Origin: a virus
IMG/VR virus record: IMGVR_UViG_3300025097_001925
Location: 1 to 60,553 of that record
DNA: 60,553 bases
Strand: one strand, 5' to 3'
The position numbers and the translations under genes are program-made. This document shows, piece by piece, positions 9,009-32,951 of this stretch. The stretch's first letter is position 1. Each line of letters begins with the position of its first letter. Under the pieces are notes generated by a model that saw only the letters and a program-made list of their open reading frames with translations, did no database searches and was not told the DNA's origin.

Positions 9009-10024
9009 CTTTCTCGTCCTATCATTTTTTCAAAATCCTTATAAGTATTAAACCTAGCTTGACTCTTTCCAAATGTACCTAAATTTGCGTGTACTAATTC
9101 CTTTATCTTGAAGAACCATTCTCCCTTCTTTTTTTGTTCACTCTTATCATCAGACAACATTTCTAATGCATACATTCTCTTTTTAGGATTATTTCTATTG
9201 TGTACCTTTAATATATTCTTCACGATAAACTGAATATAAGCTTCTCCCATAATTTGTTTACAACTGGACATTATACTCGTATCATCTACAAGATGACCAA
9301 AAATACAATGAGGTACATTTACTCCATTCTTTATTAAATCACACGACAACACCAATCCCGAACCATCAAACTGAGGTTGTTGAGTTATTCTCACATCTAT
9401 ATCTTTTGCCCTACTATTTATCTCATTCATTTCATCTATACTCATAGTATATCTTATACTCGACTGTTCTGTAAAAGCTTCTGGTTCAGATAACTCATAA
9501 AAACGGGCATCCTCAAAATCTACGTGTTCCAAAGGTTTCCAACTGTCATCCCACATCTTCCTAACAGCAAACGTAGTGACATATCTGTGAATATCTTGAG
9601 AATTGGCGTACTCTTTAATACTTTCTAATGTAGTAAACATCTCTTTAGGTAAAAGACAATCTGTTTCGCCCCAAATAACATAATCATGATTCTTACAACC
9701 ATTATAATTTAAATCCCGTCTATAGTCAACCATAGAAATAGGGTCAAAGTCATCATAAATAGTCGGATTAACAGCAGCTCCTGTTTCTTCTACCATTTTA
9801 ACCAACTCATTAAATTTATCTTTTAATTGAGGATGTGTAATTTGATTGGTGTTAACCCTTTCAAAGTATTCCGATAAATTAAAAAATAAATCTACTGTTA
9901 TATTTTCCTTATTTTCCACTTCATTAACAGCATTTACTATACTCTGTATATGTTCTTTAGCCATCTCTATCTCATAAAACATAATATGAGTACCAACTAT
10001 GTATCTATATTTTATTTTTACCAT
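9005..10024 (-). CDS. Putative GT-A glycosyltransferase
   Basis: A 339-aa protein with GT-A-like features: an N-terminal strand RYIVGTHIMFYEIEMAKEHI, spacing typical of family 2 enzymes, and the acidic D-Y-V-I-W-G-E-T-D-C segment (about residues 116-125), where the E-T-D may replace DxD as metal ligand. It lies between gmd and the sulfotransferase fusion in the same overlapping run. Family assignment is moderate; it could be a related nucleotide-sugar binding protein. Confidence 0.6.
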   Translation of the reverse strand: MVKIKYRYIVGTHIMFYEIEMAKEHIQSIVNAVNEVENKENITVDLFFNLSEYFERVNTNQITHPQLKDKFNELVKMVEETGAAVNPTIYDDFDPISMVDYRRDLNYNGCKNHDYVIWGETDCLLPKEMFTTLESIKEYANSQDIHRYVTTFAVRKMWDDSWKPLEHVDFEDARFYELSEPEAFTEQSSIRYTMSIDEMNEINSRAKDIDVRITQQPQFDGSGLVLSCDLIKNGVNVPHCIFGHLVDDTSIMSSCKQIMGEAYIQFIVKNILKVHNRNNPKKRMYALEMLSDDKSEQKKKGEWFFKIKELVHANLGTFGKSQARFNTYKDFEKMIGRER

Positions 10025-11622
10025 AATCTTGATAATCCTATTCCGCTCTCCCCTGCTGTAGAATATAAAAGATACAATTTATCATCTTCTTCATATACAC
10101 AAGGGTCTCTTAATTGATTTACTTTTTCATACACCGAACCAAAATTAGATGGAACTTTTGTTAAATTATTTCCCTCGTAATCTCTCTCTGGTTTCATAAT
10201 CATCTGTACTGATATTGGTTCCCATTTACTATGGTCGTCCTGTAATTTAATTTTCGTTAAATATATTTTCTCTCGTACTTCATCCACTAAAGTATAAAAT
10301 AAATACAATACATCATTTTTTACATATACAGCTGAATGTCTAATCTTATTAATTAAATTAAAAATAGGTTCAAACTCTCCATCCCACGTATCAGATTTAT
10401 ATACAACAGCATTTTCATTATCATTTTTAGCTATTGAATAAAATTTATTGTTATACCTAAAAACTCTAAAATAAAACTTACCTTTTGGTTTATCAATACT
10501 ATTAAAATTTAATCCATCGTCTGAAAAACTAACAAATGTTTTCTGGCCGTCTTTAGTATCTCCATGATAATACATAACTATACGTTTATTTTCTTCATCA
10601 ATATGTACATCAGGACTTGCTATATGATTTCCACAGCTCGTATCACTTAATTGTAATGTACCTTTACTATATAAAGTCCAAGGCCCTTCTATATTATCAG
10701 AATAAGCCATTCTTATATAAATACCTTGATGATGTCCGAAATACAAATAATATTTTGCGATTGGATTTTTTACCCAACTCGGTACTTTTATTAACGAAGG
10801 TCCATTTATATTATCACCGTCCTTATCTATCTTAGTACCCAAAGAAAAATCACCACCTAAACTAAAATTAGTTTGAAACGTTTTTTTATTTATTATTTCT
10901 TTTATTCTTTGTACTTTAAGTTCTGGATTAAATTTATAATTAAAAATATCCAAATCAGCAGAAAAATATTCATTAACTAACTCTACTGATTTGTCATCAT
11001 AATATTCTGTGTAGTGTTTATGCCAAGTTGGTTTAAAACCTTTCTTTTTGTGTGGTAATTCTATCCTATCTATTCCAATTTTATCACAGATATATTTAAA
11101 ATCTTCTTTTATATTTTCAAACCGTGCAATATAATCTAAACCAATTTCCCCATACGTACTTCTAATTCTATGTAAAACACCTATGTGAGTATAACCAACT
11201 TGTATATCATTTACACAATAATGAGCTGGGCCCCACACAGCCTCTTCACTACAATATGTTTTCAACCATTCTCTAAAATCTTCAATACTTCCTTCTTCAT
11301 TTCTTTTATTCCAGTTATATCTTGAAACAACTATTTCCCAGGGATTTCTAACTATACTAAATTTAAAATATTTACTCCAAACATCCTTCCTATCCGAATT
11401 TCGCGGGTCTACTCCTGACAAATAATTTTTTACATCTATTAAAAGTGGGTGTGGGTGGTCTGTAAAAAATTTATCTACATTTTTTCCTGACGCCATATCA
11501 TCCACGTCTGGTGTAATAATATCATCTTCTCCACAAATAGGGGCTAAAGCAGACTGTATACTTGTACCACCAGTCTTTCTGGTTTTCATAAAAATGAATT
11601 TGTGTTTATGAGATACTATCAT
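10018..11622 (-). CDS. Sulfotransferase fused to GH43-like beta-propeller
   Basis: Residues about 1-235 form a Sulfotransfer_2-type domain. The PAPS 5'-phosphosulfate loop is KFIFMKTRKTGGTS (8-21), the 3'-phosphate motif is FSIVRNPWEIVVSRY (about 88-102), and the end has HYTEYYDDKSVELVNEYF. Residues about 250-534 resemble the five-bladed GH43/GH32 propeller fold: NGPSLIKVP, YYLYFGHHQGIYIRMAYSD, ASPDVHIDEENKR, and RDPCVYEEDDKLYLLYSTAG. No stop or frame change lies between the parts. One half could sulfate a sugar while the other binds or trims glycan. Both roles are inferred from fold; catalytic acids of the propeller were not verified. Confidence 0.82.
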   Translation of the reverse strand: MIVSHKHKFIFMKTRKTGGTSIQSALAPICGEDDIITPDVDDMASGKNVDKFFTDHPHPLLIDVKNYLSGVDPRNSDRKDVWSKYFKFSIVRNPWEIVVSRYNWNKRNEEGSIEDFREWLKTYCSEEAVWGPAHYCVNDIQVGYTHIGVLHRIRSTYGEIGLDYIARFENIKEDFKYICDKIGIDRIELPHKKKGFKPTWHKHYTEYYDDKSVELVNEYFSADLDIFNYKFNPELKVQRIKEIINKKTFQTNFSLGGDFSLGTKIDKDGDNINGPSLIKVPSWVKNPIAKYYLYFGHHQGIYIRMAYSDNIEGPWTLYSKGTLQLSDTSCGNHIASPDVHIDEENKRIVMYYHGDTKDGQKTFVSFSDDGLNFNSIDKPKGKFYFRVFRYNNKFYSIAKNDNENAVVYKSDTWDGEFEPIFNLINKIRHSAVYVKNDVLYLFYTLVDEVREKIYLTKIKLQDDHSKWEPISVQMIMKPERDYEGNNLTKVPSNFGSVYEKVNQLRDPCVYEEDDKLYLLYSTAGESGIGLSRLW

Positions 11623-12362
11623 CCGTAAAAATATTTATATGTTTTTTCTAACCAATAACCTGGTGATGGTTTAACTCCACAATTAAAATGATATACCCAA
11701 CCATATCTTGTAAATAAAAAGTCATCACCTATAACTTCAAATCTCATCATATCTTGCATATTATATTCATAAGGTAATAAATTTATAGGTACTTCCAAAA
11801 CTTTTATAAAGAAATTAATAACTGGTTGATCCTTTCCAACAGAATAATTTTGTTGAATCATATTTAGAGATTGTTGATTATGGTCGTACCACTCTATCAT
11901 ACTATCAAACAAATCCTTATGTTCCTGTTGAAACATCATAAAACCCGTATTAAAGTAAGTCCAATAATCACCGAAATCGAATCCATCAAACACTACTTTA
12001 GAATATACTTCTATACTCCTCATAACCCAATCCATACTACCATAACAGGGAACAGCACAAAACTTTTTAGCTTCTATCATATTAAAAAAGTTGGGAGCAT
12101 CGGGATGTACAATTGTATCAGAATCCACATATAAAATTTGGTTTGGTTCTAAACCACTATTTTTTAAAAGTTCAAATACAAATATTTTATACCATTGTGG
12201 TTGCATAATATTTAAATCTGTCGTCGGTTCTTCGTGTACAAATAATTCTACACTATTCCTGTCACACCACTTAGCCCAACTCTTAATAGACCACTCATAT
12301 TTTTGAGACCTACTTCTTTCATCATGAGTTACATTAATCATATAAACTACTTTATCACTCAT
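11619..12362 (-). CDS. Glycosyltransferase with DSD motif (GT8-like)
   Basis: A GT-A type enzyme with the metal/nucleotide motif ILYVDSDTIVHPDAPNFF (DSD), followed by YFNTGFMMFQQEH and KDQPVINFF, the pattern of GT8-like retaining enzymes. ATG 12362 is used because it overlaps the upstream stop (ATGA) and follows AAAGGA; the ORF extends in frame to a GTG at 12389. Its neighbour 12359-13174 is a paralog with a changed metal motif. TATAAATA, the T4 late promoter consensus, occurs on the minus strand near its end (11632-11639) just before the next start; this may be chance. Confidence 0.82.
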   Translation of the reverse strand: MSDKVVYMINVTHDERSRSQKYEWSIKSWAKWCDRNSVELFVHEEPTTDLNIMQPQWYKIFVFELLKNSGLEPNQILYVDSDTIVHPDAPNFFNMIEAKKFCAVPCYGSMDWVMRSIEVYSKVVFDGFDFGDYWTYFNTGFMMFQQEHKDLFDSMIEWYDHNQQSLNMIQQNYSVGKDQPVINFFIKVLEVPINLLPYEYNMQDMMRFEVIGDDFLFTRYGWVYHFNCGVKPSPGYWLEKTYKYFYG

Positions 12363-13174
12363 TTGTAATTTTCCTTTACCATATTCCACGTCTGTTCCAT
12401 TAATTGATATCTATCTCCTCTGTTTGGAAACCCACTATAAAACCATACATAACCATACCTAATAAAATGTGGAGTGTTATCATCCAACTGCCAATTTCTT
12501 CCAAACCAATCAAACCTCATCATATGTGTCATCATATAAGGTGGTGATAATTTTTTATCCACCTGTACGTTTTTCATCTGTAACATATAATTGTAAACAG
12601 GTTGGTCTGTACCTCTTTTTACTTTATTATTCTGTAAATCCATTATACCATCATAATTTTCATAGTAAAACTCTTTTAATTCCTTTAAAAATTCTCTGTG
12701 AGATTCTTCAAATATTTGAAATCCACAACTTATATACTTTTTTAAATCAAATTCAAACCCATTAAAAAAATTATTATAACCATCGACCCCTTCAGCTATC
12801 CATCTCAGATTTTCTAATGAACGGAAGGCTGTTACTTGAGCGTAAGTAAAATTGAAAAAATTTGGTGTATCCCATTTAACCATAGCACAGGAATCCATAA
12901 CACATATTTTATCATAATTAATTCCAGCTTCTTCTAACTGGTCAAATACATCAAACCATCGTTGCCAAGTAATCTTATGTTTATTAGTATCACTTTCACC
13001 TGGAGTTTCATATGGAAAAAATATAACATCATTCTTTTTACACCACCATTCCCAAGTATATCTTGAAAACTTAAAATATTCAAAACCACCATGTTTTTCT
13101 TGAAGTAATGGGTCTTTACTATTTACAGCTATCCAAAATAACACATTCTTTTTATCTTCACGATGTATTTTCAT
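12359..13174 (-). CDS. GT8-like paralog with altered metal motif
   Basis: This protein matches 11619-12362 along its length: CVMDSCAMVKWDTPNFFNF corresponds to YVDSDTIVHPDAPNFFNM, ISCGFQIFEESHREF to FNTGFMMFQQEHKDL, RGTDQPVYNYM to VGKDQPVINFF, and MMTHMMRFDW to MQDMMRFEV. The DSD motif is DSC here, so one metal-binding Asp is lost. It may be inactive, metal independent or a partner subunit of its paralog. Start ATG 13174 follows GAGGAGATAGT and overlaps the stop of the Rieske remnant. Confidence 0.78.
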   Translation of the reverse strand: MKIHREDKKNVLFWIAVNSKDPLLQEKHGGFEYFKFSRYTWEWWCKKNDVIFFPYETPGESDTNKHKITWQRWFDVFDQLEEAGINYDKICVMDSCAMVKWDTPNFFNFTYAQVTAFRSLENLRWIAEGVDGYNNFFNGFEFDLKKYISCGFQIFEESHREFLKELKEFYYENYDGIMDLQNNKVKRGTDQPVYNYMLQMKNVQVDKKLSPPYMMTHMMRFDWFGRNWQLDDNTPHFIRYGYVWFYSGFPNRGDRYQLMEQTWNMVKENYK

Positions 13175-13453
13175 ACTATCTCCTCTATAAAAATTTCACT
13201 ATCGTGGTTTATACAATGACCATCTTTTAATGAAAACGTCCAAGTATGCATAGGACATATCAAATTACCATCTACCACAGTACCTTTTGACAAATCACCA
13301 AGAGCATGTGGGCAATATTTCTGTACTATCAGGAAACTGAAACCAATTATATAAAAAAGCTCCTGATTTTGAAAACCAAGGGACTATAACTATACTAACT
13401 TTTGGAGTTTCAATATAAATACTTGCATGTCCTAAAAACTTTATTTTATTCAT
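13171..13453 (-). pseudogene. Remnant of metallo-beta-lactamase/Rieske (CMAH-like) genes
   Basis: ATG 13453, two bases after the upstream stop, opens MNKIKFLGHASIYIETPK...PWFSKSGAFLYNWFQFPDST, which resembles the first beta-strands of the metallo-beta-lactamase domain of CMP-N-acetylneuraminate hydroxylase (CMAH) relatives. It ends at TGA 13297-13295. The +1 frame then carries a Rieske segment with complete ligand spacing, C-P-H, 16 residues, C-P-M-H, ending in IFIEEIV and TGA 13171 overlapping the next ATG. Domain order is MBL start then Rieske end, so a deletion seems to have joined two genes out of frame. The region has no other ORF. Confidence 0.75.
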
Positions 13454-13455
13454 CC

Positions 13456-14226
13456 TTAATCACCACCTAAATAATTCGATGCTGCAGTTATCCATTGATG
13501 ATATAAACTCTTATCTCTTGTAGCTCCTCTAGCATAATGATAATAAAATGGTTTACCATTCACAAAACATTGTTCTCCATTACCAATATTTAACAAGTGT
13601 AATTTTCTTAAATCTCTATTGTTAAATGAATTTTCAAAATAAGTAAATGATAATTTCTGTCTGTGACAAAAGTAAGTTAAATTGCCTGAACCATCTTGGT
13701 AGTCTGTATTGGGATATAAATTATACAATTCTAATGTTTTTCTTTTAATTAGTAATATTTGGTCTTTAACTGTACCCAATGCTGGTTCCCACCGCTCGCC
13801 TATAAAAGTATAGTCTTCTAACATTGGTAATACATCGTCTACCCACTCATTTAAAAATATAGCGTCGTAATCCAACAAACAAACAAATTCTCGGTTACCA
13901 CTTCTAATACCTTTTCGTTGTGATTCCGTCTTTGTTTTACTTGCTATAGAAATCATCCTACCACCAATTTTACATTCAACACTATTAGTATCTTCTGGTT
14001 TTATTTCCTGTTCCTGTTCTACACCCTTCAGTACTACAACCTTATCGTCATCATCAAATAACGCTTTTAATTCATCATAGTTATTATCTTCACCTTCATT
14101 AATACCATTATTCATAATATAGATGGTATAGGGGTCTTTAGTATACTTATGAATACTTCTAACCAAAAGATAAACGTATTCACTTCTATAAAAATTTACA
14201 ACTACGAAATCTATACCTTTATCCAT
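13456..14226 (-). CDS. Family 2-like glycosyltransferase, paralog group member
   Basis: A GT-A protein with FVVVNFYRSEYVYLLVRSI at the start and the acidic site C-L-L-D-Y-D-A-I-F-L (DxD-type) near the middle. It shares block motifs with 14219-15142 and 18076-18978: the N-L-Y-P-N-T-D-Y-Q-D-G-S-G-N-L-T segment and a C-terminal GEQCFVNGKPFYYHYARG block. Smaller than its relatives (256 aa). Its donor and acceptor are unknown. It overlaps 14219-15142 by 8 nt. Confidence 0.8.
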   Translation of the reverse strand: MDKGIDFVVVNFYRSEYVYLLVRSIHKYTKDPYTIYIMNNGINEGEDNNYDELKALFDDDDKVVVLKGVEQEQEIKPEDTNSVECKIGGRMISIASKTKTESQRKGIRSGNREFVCLLDYDAIFLNEWVDDVLPMLEDYTFIGERWEPALGTVKDQILLIKRKTLELYNLYPNTDYQDGSGNLTYFCHRQKLSFTYFENSFNNRDLRKLHLLNIGNGEQCFVNGKPFYYHYARGATRDKSLYHQWITAASNYLGGD

Positions 14227-21654: not shown

Positions 21655-22367
21655 AAATCTTTATTTACCTTCAATATAACTCTTAAAAACCCTTCTTTCC
21701 CAGCTATGTCTCCGTATCTTGGTTTATTATCTGGAATAAAATCTATATCTTTTTCTATAACTTCAAACCTATCTTCTCTTGTAAACAATTCTATCCATTT
21801 TAATGACGAAAACTGAGACTTATGTAACTCTAAACCCCTTAAAGTCTTATATCTACTAGCCGCGTGGTTTAAATCATCCCTATTAGCTTCCCGCTGTAAA
21901 GCTATAGATAACACCAAATAGTGAGTTGCTACTCTATAAAATTCTTCTATTACTTTATCAACTTCTCTTGGTCTAATATGTTCTATTGTATCTGTAGAAA
22001 ATATTATATGAAATGAATTATCTTCAAATGGTATAGTAACCGCCGAACCAGTTACACAAGTAGTTAAACGTCTTTTTTCACAATATTCTATAGCTCTCGG
22101 TGCGGGGTCTATTCCCCAAGCATCGTAACCCATTCTACATAACGAATCAACGGCTGTTCCGTTAGAACATCCTACATCCAATAAAGTTACAGAACCACTT
22201 GGTGAGTATATTGACCCCGACTCTACACTATTTTTAAAATCTAATATAGTATCTGTTTGCATTTCACCTCTTATAATGGGAAGTGAACAACACGTATCTT
22301 TATCGTGGTAACTACTACCTTTATATAACTTATTATATGTTACTCTGTACCAATCGTATTTAGGCAT
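21651..22367 (-). CDS. SAM-dependent methyltransferase (Methyltransf_11)
   Basis: Class I methyltransferase with motif I LLDVGCSNGTAVDSL (about 62-76), the acidic GIDPAPRAIEYCEK, and motif IV FHIIFSTDTIEHIRP. It is located between the sialyltransferase-like and NeuB-like genes, so it may methylate the nonulosonic acid or its precursor, but nothing in the sequence fixes the substrate. It overlaps the NeuB-like gene by 8 nt. Confidence 0.85.
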   Translation of the reverse strand: MPKYDWYRVTYNKLYKGSSYHDKDTCCSLPIIRGEMQTDTILDFKNSVESGSIYSPSGSVTLLDVGCSNGTAVDSLCRMGYDAWGIDPAPRAIEYCEKRRLTTCVTGSAVTIPFEDNSFHIIFSTDTIEHIRPREVDKVIEEFYRVATHYLVLSIALQREANRDDLNHAASRYKTLRGLELHKSQFSSLKWIELFTREDRFEVIEKDIDFIPDNKPRYGDIAGKEGFLRVILKVNKDL

Positions 22368-23244
22368 TTGGTCTCAATTTCTCCCGAACTTTAATTTCAC
22401 TATCTGTTACTATTTTTTTATCTGTACCCAACATATCCAACACCTTATCACATCTCTTTCTCAACATATCCATAGCAAACACCTCTAAACTTGAACTATG
22501 GTCTGTTCCCCACATACTATGGTCTAATGTTATATGTCTTTCAATTACTCTGGCCCCTAACGTAATAGCTATAAGTGGTGGTTCTAAGTATTTCTCATGA
22601 CCAGAATAACCTACTGGACAATGATATCTATCTTGTAATGTATTAATAACTCGTAAATTCAATTCATTCTCAGGAGCTGGGTATGTAGAATTACAATGTA
22701 ATAACATAAAATCATGATGAAAATAATCCCTAAGTGCGTAATAAACATAACCACCTTTCAATGTTTCAACGGTTTTGTCGATTTCCTCTAAGGTACTCAT
22801 ACCAGTACTCAAAATTAAAAACTTTCCAGTTTCAGTCGCAGCATTAATTAAATCTAAATCTGTAAGTAAAGCCGATGGTATTTTAATAAAAGGAACATCA
22901 TACTGACTCATAAACTCTAAACTATCCATATCCCAAACCGATGCTGTCCAATCTATAGATTTCTCTTTACAGTACTTATCTATATAATCATACTCTTCCT
23001 TACCAAACTCAACTCTATGTTTATATTCAAGATAAGTCATAGTTCCCCAAGGTGTCTCTCTCATAACTCCCTTTTGTTTCTCAGGAATACAAACATCTGG
23101 ATTTCTCTTTTGAAACTTTACACAATCCCAATTACTCGCAAAAGAAGCATCAATAAGTTTCTTAGCTATTTGTAAATCACCATTATGATTTATACCTACC
23201 TCAGCTATAAAATAAGGTTCATCTAAGTTATAAAAATCTACCAT
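22360..23244 (-). CDS. NeuB/SpsE-like nonulosonic acid synthase without SAF domain
   Basis: The TIM-barrel enzyme condenses phosphoenolpyruvate with an N-acyl hexosamine to form a nine-carbon sialic-acid-like sugar. It shows FIAEVGINHNGD at the N-terminus, VKFQKRNPD, WTASVWDMDSLEFM, VPFIKIPSALL, LILSTGMST and HCNSTYPAPENELNL, VGYSGHEKYLE and ITLGARVIERHITLD. The protein ends with EIKVREKLRPNA, where bacterial NeuB proteins (about 345 aa) continue into a C-terminal SAF antifreeze-like domain of about 60 residues. ATG 23244 is used because the extension to 23253 starts with TTG. It overlaps both neighbours. Confidence 0.92.
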   Translation of the reverse strand: MVDFYNLDEPYFIAEVGINHNGDLQIAKKLIDASFASNWDCVKFQKRNPDVCIPEKQKGVMRETPWGTMTYLEYKHRVEFGKEEYDYIDKYCKEKSIDWTASVWDMDSLEFMSQYDVPFIKIPSALLTDLDLINAATETGKFLILSTGMSTLEEIDKTVETLKGGYVYYALRDYFHHDFMLLHCNSTYPAPENELNLRVINTLQDRYHCPVGYSGHEKYLEPPLIAITLGARVIERHITLDHSMWGTDHSSSLEVFAMDMLRKRCDKVLDMLGTDKKIVTDSEIKVREKLRPNA

Positions 23245-23918
23245 GCTGTCCAACCCCCATCCACCGTAAAAGTAGTTCCTGTTGTATATGTAGAATTTTC
23301 AGAACACAAGTAATCTAATAAACCATTTAATTCATTAACTTTCATCATTCTACCTAAAGGAACTCTTTCACTATACCTTTCTTTAAATTCTTTTGTCTGA
23401 TTAAATTCTACTCCACCAGGAATAACACAATTCACTCTAAAGTGGGGAGCTAAGTGTGTAGCCAAATGTCTTGTAAGTTGTATAACTCCAGCCTTAGACA
23501 CTCCGTAACCTATATGTTTCTCTTCACCCCCACCATAAAGTCTTTTATCTGGTGATACCACACCATAATGAGATGAAAAGTTAACTATAGTTCCCTGTGC
23601 ATTCATAAGAGCAAACTGTCTACATACAGAAAACAATGTTGTTAAGTTCGCTCGTAAATAATCATCAAAACTTTTTAAATCAATACTATACAAACTCGTA
23701 GAAGTTTTTTCATCTGTAATATGATGTTGTAATGCAAACAAATTAATAACATATTTCACAGGATTTTCCATGAACCATTCCTTAACAAAATTCTCATCTG
23801 TTAAATCGTGTCCCAACTTCAAGTCCAATCTAAATACTTCATCACCATTACGTTCAAAATAAGAAGATACCTCTCTACCAATTAAACCTTCAGAACCAGT
23901 TATTACTATCTTTCTCAT
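23238..23918 (-). CDS. Short-chain dehydrogenase (PtmA-like)
   Basis: A classical SDR: ITGSEGLIGREVSSYF (NAD(P) motif), LTDEN, INLFALQHH, IVNFSSHYGVVSPDKRLYGGGEE, the catalytic Y-G-V-S-K-A-G, and the end CVIPGGVEF plus TGTTFTVDGGW. PtmA-type SDRs are found in legionaminic-acid loci next to a CMP-sugar synthase, which matches this position between NeuB-like and cytidylyltransferase genes. The likely role is reduction or oxidation of the sugar intermediate; exact substrate unknown. Confidence 0.88.
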   Translation of the reverse strand: MRKIVITGSEGLIGREVSSYFERNGDEVFRLDLKLGHDLTDENFVKEWFMENPVKYVINLFALQHHITDEKTSTSLYSIDLKSFDDYLRANLTTLFSVCRQFALMNAQGTIVNFSSHYGVVSPDKRLYGGGEEKHIGYGVSKAGVIQLTRHLATHLAPHFRVNCVIPGGVEFNQTKEFKERYSERVPLGRMMKVNELNGLLDYLCSENSTYTTGTTFTVDGGWTAW

Positions 23919-25846
23919 TTATCAAAATGTTCTATTGTATTTCTAAGAGCATACAACTGAATATTCCTTTCTAATTCATTTGCTTGGTTAGTTGTAAATT
24001 GCATCAAATTCTTTTGTAGTTTTTCAGCTACTGGAACATCACCCCACCCTATATCTTTAAACGCTGGTTCTCTATTTTGAGTTTTCCACGCCGCATAAAT
24101 ACCATCACCATCAAGTTCTATATATTTCTTCCTAAATGCCTGCCACGGTATTCCATACTTCTCACCTTCATATAAAGCTGTAAATGTATAATAAGAATGT
24201 TTATATCCTTCTGGAGTTTTCTGAGGTATCAATAACTTAGTACCTGTATCTTTTATAACTTCCTCATAACCCAATCCCATTTGTATTCTTTTCTCACAAA
24301 ACTCATCTATATTCTCTGTCTGTGCAAGAGCCACAGCTGCACACAACTCAGGCATTCTATAATTGTATGCCATAACATTATGTCGTTCCCAATTTGGGTC
24401 TTGAAATTTATCTCTTGATATTCTAACCTTACCACTACCCGCTGTAATATTCTTAAACCCCACACCACCAAACTGTCTCATTCTTTTAGCAAATACTTTA
24501 TTATTTGTTGTTACTATACCACCATCCCCACTAGACAAATGTTTAGAATTTTCAAAACTCCAACTACCTACATCACCAATGGTTCCTGCTAACCTATTAT
24601 GATTATCAGTAGCTAAAAAACATTGAGCACAATCTTCAACAATATGGATTTTTCTGTGGTAAATAATCTTCAATAGTTTTTCCATATCACACATCAAACC
24701 ATAAATATGAACAGGCATTATAGCTTTTGTTTTACCTGTTATTTTATCTTCTACATCATCCATATCCATCAAAAAAGTATCTTCTCTAACATCAGCAAAT
24801 ACAGGTGTAGCTCCAGTTTGCCATACAGAAAATCCACACATAGCTGGAGTAAGAGCGGGAACTATAACTTCATCACCCTCACCGACTCCAAATGATTCCA
24901 AAGCCGTATGTAATGTAGAAGTTCCCGAATTAAAACCTATGGCATATTTTTGATTATGTTTCTCAGCAAATAAAGTTTCTAACCTTTCTATCATGGCTCC
25001 AGTTTCACTTGCTCCAAACCCATTATCTAAAACTTCACTCAAATACTTTTTCTCATTACCAGTAAATCTCCAACCTTTATTTTTTCTTACATCTATAGTT
25101 TTAGACTCCTGTAAAGACTTCCACTTTTTTTCTAAGTACGCGTTATATTGTACAATATCCCTATTCAAATTTAAGTAATCTGTTATCTCTGTAAAACTCA
25201 TACGGTTATGACCAAAGTAAGATATTACTTTATCAAAAAACTTGAAGTCATCTGCGTAATCTAAAGTCATTCTAACTTGTGGTCGTTTATACACATCAGG
25301 TACATTTTGTAATTCTTCAACTTGAAAAAGGTCAGTATCTTCAAAGTATACCCACATCATTTCAGTGTCATCTCTAGTTTTAATAGCACAAACCTTTTCC
25401 AAAGCATCTCTCTTAATACCATAAGTAAAAGCACCCACAGCTAAACCTGAACTTTTAATAAAATCAGTATTTGTTCTTTTATACTGCTTTAAAGCTAACT
25501 CTATTAAGTGTGGGTCACAAAATAAATCATCACCATCTACTGTTACAAAGAAATCAACATCATAAGTTTTACAAGCTAACAACCATCTTTTTAATTTATC
25601 TTTCTCACTTCCTCTAATATAATCAATACCATTTCGTACTGCTATTTCACATAAAACATCATCCTCTTTTTTCATTGTAGTACATAAAACTATATTATCT
25701 ATACCTGGTATCATACCATCAGAATAACCACGTAACATTCTATCTATCAAATGTTCTATAGTTGATTTACCTTTTATTTCTAATAAAGCTTTATTCTTCA
25801 ATCTAGAAGAATTTGTTCTAACTGTAATAAAGACGGATTTATTCAC
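23915..25846 (-). CDS. Cytidylyltransferase-DegT aminotransferase fusion (SpsF-SpsC-like)
   Basis: Residues about 1-245 are a SpsF/CMP-sugar synthetase-like domain (VFITVRTNSSRLKNKALLEIKGKSTIEHL, FFVTVDGDDLFCDP). Residues about 255-643 are a complete DegT/StrS aminotransferase: IGFNSGTSTLHTAL, DEVIVPALTPAMC, HIVEDCAQCF, and a Schiff-base Lys in S-W-S-F-E-N-S-K-H-L-S-S-G-D-G-G. In Bacillus sps clusters these are separate genes, spsF and spsC. GTG 25846 is favoured: it follows the stop-overlap region of the upstream gene and starts at the first beta strand. The ORF extends in frame to a TTG at 25882. The linked activities may join amination to CMP activation. Confidence 0.9.
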   Translation of the reverse strand: MNKSVFITVRTNSSRLKNKALLEIKGKSTIEHLIDRMLRGYSDGMIPGIDNIVLCTTMKKEDDVLCEIAVRNGIDYIRGSEKDKLKRWLLACKTYDVDFFVTVDGDDLFCDPHLIELALKQYKRTNTDFIKSSGLAVGAFTYGIKRDALEKVCAIKTRDDTEMMWVYFEDTDLFQVEELQNVPDVYKRPQVRMTLDYADDFKFFDKVISYFGHNRMSFTEITDYLNLNRDIVQYNAYLEKKWKSLQESKTIDVRKNKGWRFTGNEKKYLSEVLDNGFGASETGAMIERLETLFAEKHNQKYAIGFNSGTSTLHTALESFGVGEGDEVIVPALTPAMCGFSVWQTGATPVFADVREDTFLMDMDDVEDKITGKTKAIMPVHIYGLMCDMEKLLKIIYHRKIHIVEDCAQCFLATDNHNRLAGTIGDVGSWSFENSKHLSSGDGGIVTTNNKVFAKRMRQFGGVGFKNITAGSGKVRISRDKFQDPNWERHNVMAYNYRMPELCAAVALAQTENIDEFCEKRIQMGLGYEEVIKDTGTKLLIPQKTPEGYKHSYYTFTALYEGEKYGIPWQAFRKKYIELDGDGIYAAWKTQNREPAFKDIGWGDVPVAEKLQKNLMQFTTNQANELERNIQLYALRNTIEHFDK

Positions 25847-26768
25847 TAAAAAACTCTCTGTTATTTTTCGTCCACTCAACAATAGCCGGTAGTTGACCTT
25901 CCAAAGTTCTTTTTGGTACCCAACCTAAACTTCTTAATTTAGTACTTACTGAATTATAACTCGGGTCTTGGGACGGTCTATCCTCTACATACTCTACAAC
26001 TTCATCAAAGTTTTTATTCATAACTTCACAAATCATCTTAGTAACTTGAAGTATAGAATATTCCTCATCAGTTGTTACGTTATAAATGTTTCTATTATGA
26101 CCTACATCCATCACTAATTCAACAGCATCCACAAAATCCTCTACGTGTAAAAAATTTCTTAATTGTGAACCATCCCCGTGTACTGGTAATTTTTTATTAT
26201 CTAACAAAAGAGATATAAATTTTGTTACTAACTTATCTGGAAATTGCTTTAGTCCGTATGCATTATTTAATCTCACCGACTTCCAATTAAGACCATAACT
26301 ATAACCATAGGAATGTAACAAAGATTCTCCAGCAGCTTTAGTAAATGAATAAGGGTTGGTGGGTAATGTCATAGAATCTTCATGTAACACTTCACCTGTA
26401 CCTATAACTTCGTCAGTACTTAAATGTATCAACGGTATATCACAATCTATACAAAATCTACTAAGATGGTGTAGTCCTAAAATGTTAATTCTTATAAAAT
26501 CTTTTGGTCTATCAAATGATTCATCAACGTGAGTCTCAGCTGCAGAGTTAATAACCAAATCAAAATTTCTTCCAATTCTTCTCATAGTCACCCAAGACCT
26601 ACCATCTTCTATACTGAAAGGCCAAATAACAACATCAGTATCAATTCTATCTATAGATGAAGTATGACCTAAATTATCATAAATCTGAACATCGTGTCCA
26701 TTATCACAAAATCTATTTACTATATGAGAACCTACAAACCCAGCTCCACCTGTTATTAATACTTTCAT
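25839..26768 (-). CDS. RmlB-like NDP-sugar 4,6-dehydratase/epimerase
   Basis: An extended SDR close to dTDP-glucose 4,6-dehydratase: G-G-A-G-F-V-G-S, NSAAETHVDESFDRP, HLSTDEVIG with the T-D-E catalytic group, and N-P-Y-S-F-T-K-A-A-G-E giving Tyr-x3-Lys. VRLNNAYGLKQFPDK and RNFLHVEDFVDA are the sugar-binding parts. It lacks an RmlA partner in the window, so the activated sugar may come from the host or elsewhere in the genome. It may form the keto sugar used by the neighbouring aminotransferase. Confidence 0.9.
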   Translation of the reverse strand: MKVLITGGAGFVGSHIVNRFCDNGHDVQIYDNLGHTSSIDRIDTDVVIWPFSIEDGRSWVTMRRIGRNFDLVINSAAETHVDESFDRPKDFIRINILGLHHLSRFCIDCDIPLIHLSTDEVIGTGEVLHEDSMTLPTNPYSFTKAAGESLLHSYGYSYGLNWKSVRLNNAYGLKQFPDKLVTKFISLLLDNKKLPVHGDGSQLRNFLHVEDFVDAVELVMDVGHNRNIYNVTTDEEYSILQVTKMICEVMNKNFDEVVEYVEDRPSQDPSYNSVSTKLRSLGWVPKRTLEGQLPAIVEWTKNNREFFSE

Positions 26769-32552: not shown

Positions 32553-32574
32553 AATAACCTCTTTCTTTTAAAAA

Positions 32575-32727
32575 TTAATCGTGCAATAACTCTTTTTTAA
32601 CTTCTTCTTTATGAACACTCTTTTTTATGACACTCAAGTGTTCTTCCATTTTAACCAATATTCTATGCATATCGTGAAGTAATCTCTCAACATTTTTATT
32701 ATTTGGCATACTACCTGTATTCTTCAT
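32575..32727 (-). CDS. Small coiled-coil-like protein
   Basis: A 50-aa ORF not long enough for standard listing: MKNTGSMPNNKNVERLLHDM, then RILVKMEEHLSVIKKSVHKEE, ending LLHD. It is a single amphipathic helix. ATG 32727 overlaps the stop of the ribbon-helix-helix gene (ATGA), so it is translationally coupled. It fills the gap before the first glycosyltransferase. It could be a partner of the DNA-binding protein. Confidence 0.6.
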   Translation of the reverse strand: MKNTGSMPNNKNVERLLHDMHRILVKMEEHLSVIKKSVHKEEVKKELLHD

Positions 32728-32915
32728 AATCTACTACCACTCGGTTTAAGTGCGTCATATTTTTCTATTTTTTTTCTGAACTTATCATCTCTTACATACA
32801 AATCCATAGAGCGATTGACAAGTTTTTGTAACGTAAATTCTCCGTCTAGATTTCTACCTTTAAATTGTTTATATAAGTCAATTAATATTTTGACTGTAGT
32901 TAATTTTACTTCCAT
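32724..32915 (-). CDS. Ribbon-helix-helix-like DNA-binding protein
   Basis: A 63-aa protein: VKLTTVKILIDLYKQFKGRN forms the basic beta strand and first helix, and TLQKLVNRSMDLYVRDDKFR the second helix, matching the MetJ/Arc-type ribbon-helix-helix fold. Such dimers bind operator DNA. It is the first gene after the gap at 32916-32951 and heads the sugar cassette, so it could control that transcript; autoregulation is a guess. Confidence 0.72.
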   Translation of the reverse strand: MEVKLTTVKILIDLYKQFKGRNLDGEFTLQKLVNRSMDLYVRDDKFRKKIEKYDALKPSGSRL

Positions 32916-32951
32916 AATAATTCCATATATATGTATATATAAATATCTATT
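32916..32951 (-). promoter_or_regulatory. Alternating-AT gap before the sugar transcript
   Basis: A 36-bp gap with no gene holding alternating (TA)n; ATATATATGTATATA at 32925-32939 on the plus strand is the inverse of the element at 39068-39082 and 164-178. It stands upstream of the ribbon-helix-helix gene that leads into the sugar cassette. A promoter or operator is plausible but not proven. Confidence 0.35.

Follow-up and report, generated by a model that had tools for sequence, protein, structure and literature searches.

We consider it probable that the segment at positions 13171-13453 of the virus record IMGVR_UViG_3300025097_001925 is a pseudogene of one MBL-SCP2-Rieske enzyme of ~505 aa, a member of the NamH/CMAH superfamily, disrupted by a single out-of-frame internal deletion of ~1.25 kb, with a CMP-nonulosonate as the likelier substrate of the lost step. 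Remnants of both ends of the gene are present, the reading frame is broken between them and the HxHxDH metal motif is lost; the intact relatives are single genes, and the downstream neighbour is conserved.

Organisation of the window

The window, i.e. the whole 60,553-nt stretch of DNA analysed, is that virus record. It includes T4-like replication genes (clamp loader, DNA polymerase, UvsX-like recombinase and DnaB-like helicase) and a sugar cassette of ~30 kb with many nucleotide-sugar enzymes. NeuB-like and CMP-sugar-synthase-like products had been predicted for the cassette, and matches to PF03102 and PF02348, respectively, confirmed both. The features discussed below are as follows.

13456..14226, minus strand: putative glycosyltransferase gene upstream, 2 nt before the remnant ATG; resembles neighbouring glycosyltransferase-like genes; no Pfam match
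13316..13453, minus strand: 5' remnant, first ~45 codons of an MBL (UlaG-like) domain; 74-77% identity to residues 2-44 of the L004 and L009 proteins
13316..13323, minus strand: junction CAGAAATA, read as T-E-I (MBL frame) or Q-K-Y (Rieske frame)
13171..13323, minus strand: 3' remnant, last ~50 codons, with the C-x-H...C-x2-H part of a Rieske domain (Pfam Rieske, 1.1e-9)
13180..13185, minus strand: Shine-Dalgarno-like GAGGAG for the downstream glycosyltransferase gene, within the 3' remnant and 5 nt before that gene's ATG
12359..13174, minus strand: putative glycosyltransferase gene downstream of the remnant; no Pfam match
22360..23253, minus strand: NeuB-family (nonulosonate synthase) gene of the cassette (PF03102, 2.1e-68)
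23915..25882, minus strand: cassette gene for a CMP-sugar synthase-like protein (CTP_transf_3) fused to a DegT aminotransferase (PF02348, 1.8e-12; PF01041, 4.6e-72)

In the same cassette, 10018-11622 codes for a sulfotransferase domain (PF03567) and, after it, ~300 residues with no Pfam match. A protein with a similar start is encoded near the glycosyltransferase gene in L061.

The two remnants and their junction

The MBL frame opens with the ATG at 13453, starts MNKIKFLGHASIYIE and runs for 52 codons to a stop at 13295-13297; ~45 of the codons are homologous, the homologous stretch ending WFQFPDSTEI. The Rieske frame carries YCPHALGDLSKGTVVDGNLICPMH and ends with the TGA at 13171-13173, giving a 4-nt overlap (ATGA) with the ATG of the next gene. 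Its cluster motif, YCPH-x16-CPMH, has the C-x-H...C-x2-H spacing originally noted.

In tblastn searches, residues 2-44 of the L009 MBL domain aligned with 13444-13316 at 77% identity (E 4.5e-16; E 2.7e-16 for the L004 protein), and residues 456-502 of the L009 Rieske domain aligned with 13323-13183 at 68% identity (E 5.9e-18). The best score from 500 shuffles of the segment was 23.9 bits. The claim that ~45 MBL codons abut the last ~50 Rieske codons in a different frame is borne out by these E values, 2.7e-16 and 5.9e-18. The Pfam match of the 43-aa MBL stub to Lactamase_B_3 reached only 0.022.

Residues 46-455 of the intact relatives gave no significant tblastn match elsewhere in the window; hence relocation of the interior within the window was rejected. 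The HxHxDH metal motif lies in the absent part, and the window remnant is not a working member of the NamH/CMAH superfamily. The proposal that an internal deletion produced this fossil held, with the interior absent from the window and the homologies being to opposite ends of the protein.

The MBL and Rieske homologies overlap on exactly 8 nt, CAGAAATA. Intact genes have 1248-1293 nt between the FPDN Pro codon and the first Cys codon of the Rieske domain, versus 19 nt in the window; thus, the loss amounts to ~1.23-1.27 kb and disrupts the reading frame. One deletion of this size closing within CAGAAATA would explain the remnant, and the 8-nt overlap would fit a deletion that closed between short direct repeats. 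The 5' site reads ACA GAA ATA in L020, and the 3' site in the relatives reads CA(A/G) A(A/G)(A/G) TA(T/C) TG(T/C) or close variants. The mechanism of deletion can only be inferred, since the parental sequence was not found and the relatives do not all share the bases of the micro-homology.

Intact viral relatives

Searching viral contigs with the Rieske piece gave one near-identical record and two intact relatives, and alignment searches added more. Each of five viral contigs (L003, L004, L008, L009 and L020) has an intact relative in the form of one ORF of 500-515 aa, whose product unites an MBL (UlaG-like) and a Rieske domain. In L003 and L004 the order of Pfam domains is Lactamase_B_3, SCP2_Rv3818, Rieske, with SCP2_Rv3818 scoring 39.6 and 49.8 bits, respectively (cut-off 28.2). 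The ligands of the HxHxDH metal motif and of the Rieske cluster, H59, H61, D63, H64, C464, H466, C483 and H486, are invariant in 8/8 aligned relatives. The remnant is closest to the intact viral relatives (67% to L009 over 94 columns). No homolog conserving the short arrangement in frame was found; a search of viral contigs for the short form in other lineages returned only the near-identical record.

A homolog of the glycosyltransferase encoded at 12359-13174 lies directly downstream of the intact gene in L003, L004, L008 and L009, which indicates that the remnant stands at the intact gene's place. In L020, the intact gene opens the cassette and lacks that neighbour. Intact homologs had been expected in viral contigs as a neighbouring pair of genes; they were found before the glycosyltransferase homolog in four contigs, but as a fused gene. 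A single-sequence search for this glycosyltransferase retrieved the sister record only, and a search by alignment retrieved 79 loci. Apart from the sister record, the hydroxylase gene adjoins the glycosyltransferase gene at only four of the 79, L058, L060, L072 and L082, which are the contigs of L003, L004, L008 and L009.

The intact gene lies inside the sugar cassette in L009 (10004-11521) and at its start in L020 (3811-5325), in cassettes that are otherwise similar. These differing positions suggest that the intact hydroxylase gene moves as a unit.

Two further candidates were set aside. A 16-residue match in a tail-gene region (L005) was a chance match, and only the MBL part matched in Prochlorococcus L015, a genome with no PF25451 match.

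Relationship to NamH, CMAH and cellular homologs

NamH (Rv3818) is the UDP-N-acetylmuramic acid hydroxylase found in mycobacteria and their relatives. It uses O2 to turn UDP-MurNAc into its N-glycolyl form (PMC10050696, PMC10234563); its UlaG domain is N-terminal and its Rieske domain C-terminal (PMC10050696). The intact viral relatives share with it the order UlaG/MBL, SCP2_Rv3818, Rieske and the motifs SHxHxDH, AGPPCFLD and CPH...C-x2-H. To our knowledge, NamH is the only characterised enzyme with the MBL domain first and the Rieske domain last. The viral proteins differ in being only 25-29% identical to it, in forming a separate clade and in having their gene within a phage sugar cassette, and the window holds a dead copy. 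A search with the Pfam model retrieved actinobacterial homologs, and these can be aligned with the viral protein over almost its whole length at this 25-29% identity. In the tree, actinobacterial NamH sequences form a separate clade (100/100), and the viral rows lie outside it, with thaumarchaeal and Saccharopolyspora rosea rows. The substrate of the viral enzymes probably differs from the UDP-MurNAc of NamH.

Among cellular sequences, two thaumarchaeal MAGs and S. rosea supply the nearest relatives, at 40-44% identity. Strong matches among ~200 genomes of the thaumarchaeal order were confined to these two MAGs, L012 and L013. Both MAGs are Nitrosopumilaceae and encode full NamH-like proteins (L012 2421-3953 and L013 443-1969), which are 42-44% identical to the L004 protein and have a glycosyltransferase-like gene nearby. 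Another thaumarchaeal genome (G157; L042 1187-2808 on the minus strand) has a distant homolog in two adjacent ORFs, MBL-SCP2-like and Rieske, with 2 nt between them; hence, both fused and split forms exist in the superfamily.

CMAH, the CMP-Neu5Ac hydroxylase, produces CMP-Neu5Gc and is distantly homologous to NamH (PMC6481270); its Rieske domain is N-terminal and its MBL domain C-terminal (PMC8227644). Like the viral proteins it combines Rieske and beta-lactamase-like domains, and it turns the N-acetyl group of a nucleotide sugar into N-glycolyl (PMC6481270, PMC8227644). The original prediction likened the fossil to CMAH; it is indeed an MBL and Rieske fossil of the CMAH/NamH kind, but its domain order is that of NamH and the reverse of that in CMAH. 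Membership of CMAH was therefore rejected for the viral relatives on the published domain order, Rieske first.

The AF2 model of the L004 protein has a pLDDT of 87.5, and Foldseek places MBL-fold proteins at the top of its PDB matches, among them the diiron hydroxylases CmlA and FrsH. These two are among the closest solved structures to the fold model and have an MBL domain that performs O2 chemistry, but the alignment covers just part of the model (TM by query ~0.36) and the overall architecture differs. We know of no Rieske domain in CmlA or FrsH.

The expected reaction of the intact enzyme is hydroxylation of a nucleotide-activated sugar, whose N-acetyl group would become N-glycolyl. O2 would be activated at the MBL metal site, and the Rieske cluster would pass on electrons taken from a host reductase. 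These roles of the two domains are likely in view of the CmlA and FrsH matches of the model and the reaction of the mycobacterial NamH and the animal CMAH. Having lost this step, the window phage would presumably attach the unmodified N-acetyl sugar.

Candidate substrate

NeuB is encoded on the contigs of 3/4 intact-gene lineages long enough to judge and in the window lineage. It is absent from the 45.7-kb L009 contig, which has the intact gene, and L020 (12.4 kb) shows none. A cytidylyltransferase is encoded on 8/8 records tested. Viral contigs with the same glycosyltransferase family but without an adjoining hydroxylase gene have NeuB in 5/50 cases. By Fisher's test, the comparison of lineages with gene or remnant (4/5) with these 5/50 gave p = 0.0017, for a small sample of related contigs. 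For intact genes only (3/4 versus 5/50), p = 0.008. Counting L020 as lacking NeuB gave p = 0.004. As the contigs are fragmentary and related to each other, this co-occurrence is support rather than proof.

The co-occurrence favours a CMP-nonulosonate, our best guess for the substrate, with other UDP-sugars as the main competitor. The sugar would be supplied by the NeuB and cytidylyltransferase of the cassette, and the ancestral role would most likely have been hydroxylation of a CMP-nonulosonate at the N-acetyl group. The original suggestion that an ancestral phage modified a sialic-acid-like sugar is plausible and agrees with the NeuB statistics, but is unproven.

The same pseudogene may instead descend from an enzyme that acted on a UDP-sugar (UDP-MurNAc or UDP-HexNAc) or had another oxidative role, with NeuB merely a frequent companion, which we regard as possible but less probable. 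This would agree with the use of UDP-MurNAc by NamH, which has the same domain order (PMC10234563), with the presence of the gene in L009, where the contig lacks NeuB, and with the wealth of other nucleotide-sugar enzymes in the cassette. Enrichment of NeuB with the gene argues against it, and so does the presence of thaumarchaeal members in the clade. Archaea do not have muramic acid; hence it is unlikely that UDP-MurNAc serves as substrate in the whole clade, and a CMP-nonulosonate remains more likely than UDP-MurNAc.

A broader proposal is put forward tentatively. Phages with T4-like replication genes may have a distinct NamH-like subfamily, shared with some thaumarchaea, that makes N-glycolyl nonulosonic acids (Neu5Gc-like) during infection, and some lineages, including that of the window, may have lost this step.

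Retention and origin of the remnant

A second record, 3300025114_001797, has an identical remnant with the same junction. It differs from the window record by 6 SNPs over 16 kb (99.96% identical), none of them in the remnant, and the two records are one virus population, assembled separately.

It is very unlikely that the remnant is still functional, be it as a frameshifted 94-aa product, as a short Rieske peptide or as a leader coupling translation to the glycosyltransferase. Among residues invariant in the alignment of eight relatives, 3/14 are changed in the MBL stub (T21I, D22V and N41S) and 0/14 in the Rieske part. The preservation of 14/14 versus 11/14 would fit a retained Rieske function, though the difference is not significant (p = 0.11). 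The GAGGAG motif and the ATGA overlap are also kept, and the remnant is identical in the two records. However, as these represent one population, that identity says little about selection, and the evolutionary evidence from them is not independent. The ORF of the Rieske part opened by an ATG, GTG or TTG codon (TTG at 13293) begins past the first C-x-H pair, and in the MBL stub the HxHxDH site is absent and T21 and D22 are replaced. A simple reason for retention of the 3' end of a dead gene would be that the ribosome-binding site and the start overlap of the downstream glycosyltransferase gene are situated there.

The original prediction described a gene pair that had lost both gene interiors. 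That two neighbouring genes, for an MBL and a Rieske protein, were each shortened by one deletion is highly improbable. The split thaumarchaeal homolog L042, with ORFs 2 nt apart, offers a parallel, but 5/5 intact viral relatives are single ORFs and the remnant is closest to them. The description as a pair was therefore abandoned in favour of one fused gene that lost one interior.

Collapse of an intact gene during assembly is equally improbable, since two records from separate assemblies, with 6 differences between them in 16 kb, have the same junction, any repeat inferred there is at most ~8 nt long and the neighbouring genes are intact.

Occurrence and significance

The remnant in the window is itself a case of ordinary gene decay, and the interest lies in the intact viral relatives. 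No relatives were found among 50,697 INPHARED phage records, and BFVD (structural search) gave no full-length viral relative, only partial MBL matches. A phage NamH or CMAH was not found reported in the limited literature collections searched. The intact hydroxylase genes of these related marine phages appear to be undescribed.

N-glycolyl sugars are seldom met in nature, the main examples known being Neu5Gc and N-glycolylmuramic acid (PMC6481270). If true, a NamH-like hydroxylase encoded by a phage beside its NeuB and CMP-sugar synthase genes would give viruses a new means of altering surface sugars, plausibly with an effect on recognition. Precedents for phage genes that alter nonulosonic acid chemistry are the phage-encoded nonulosonate 4-O-acetyltransferases (PMC6586298) and nonulosonate-modifying EpaA/EpaB (PMC12053666) of Acinetobacter. 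These enzymes differ in performing acetylation or epimerisation, in belonging to other enzyme families and in that the genes were studied in bacterial isolates. The occurrence of a remnant beside lineages with the intact gene suggests that the trait is gained and lost like other cassette genes. The intact genes also offer microbial enzymes for probing the little-known mechanism of CMAH and NamH.

Among the other intergenic gaps of the window that were tested, those with matches mostly held short open frames common to the relatives, and homology across two frames was seen only in the gap at 32553-32951, which matches L009 and L020. This gap is possibly another frameshifted or split small gene.
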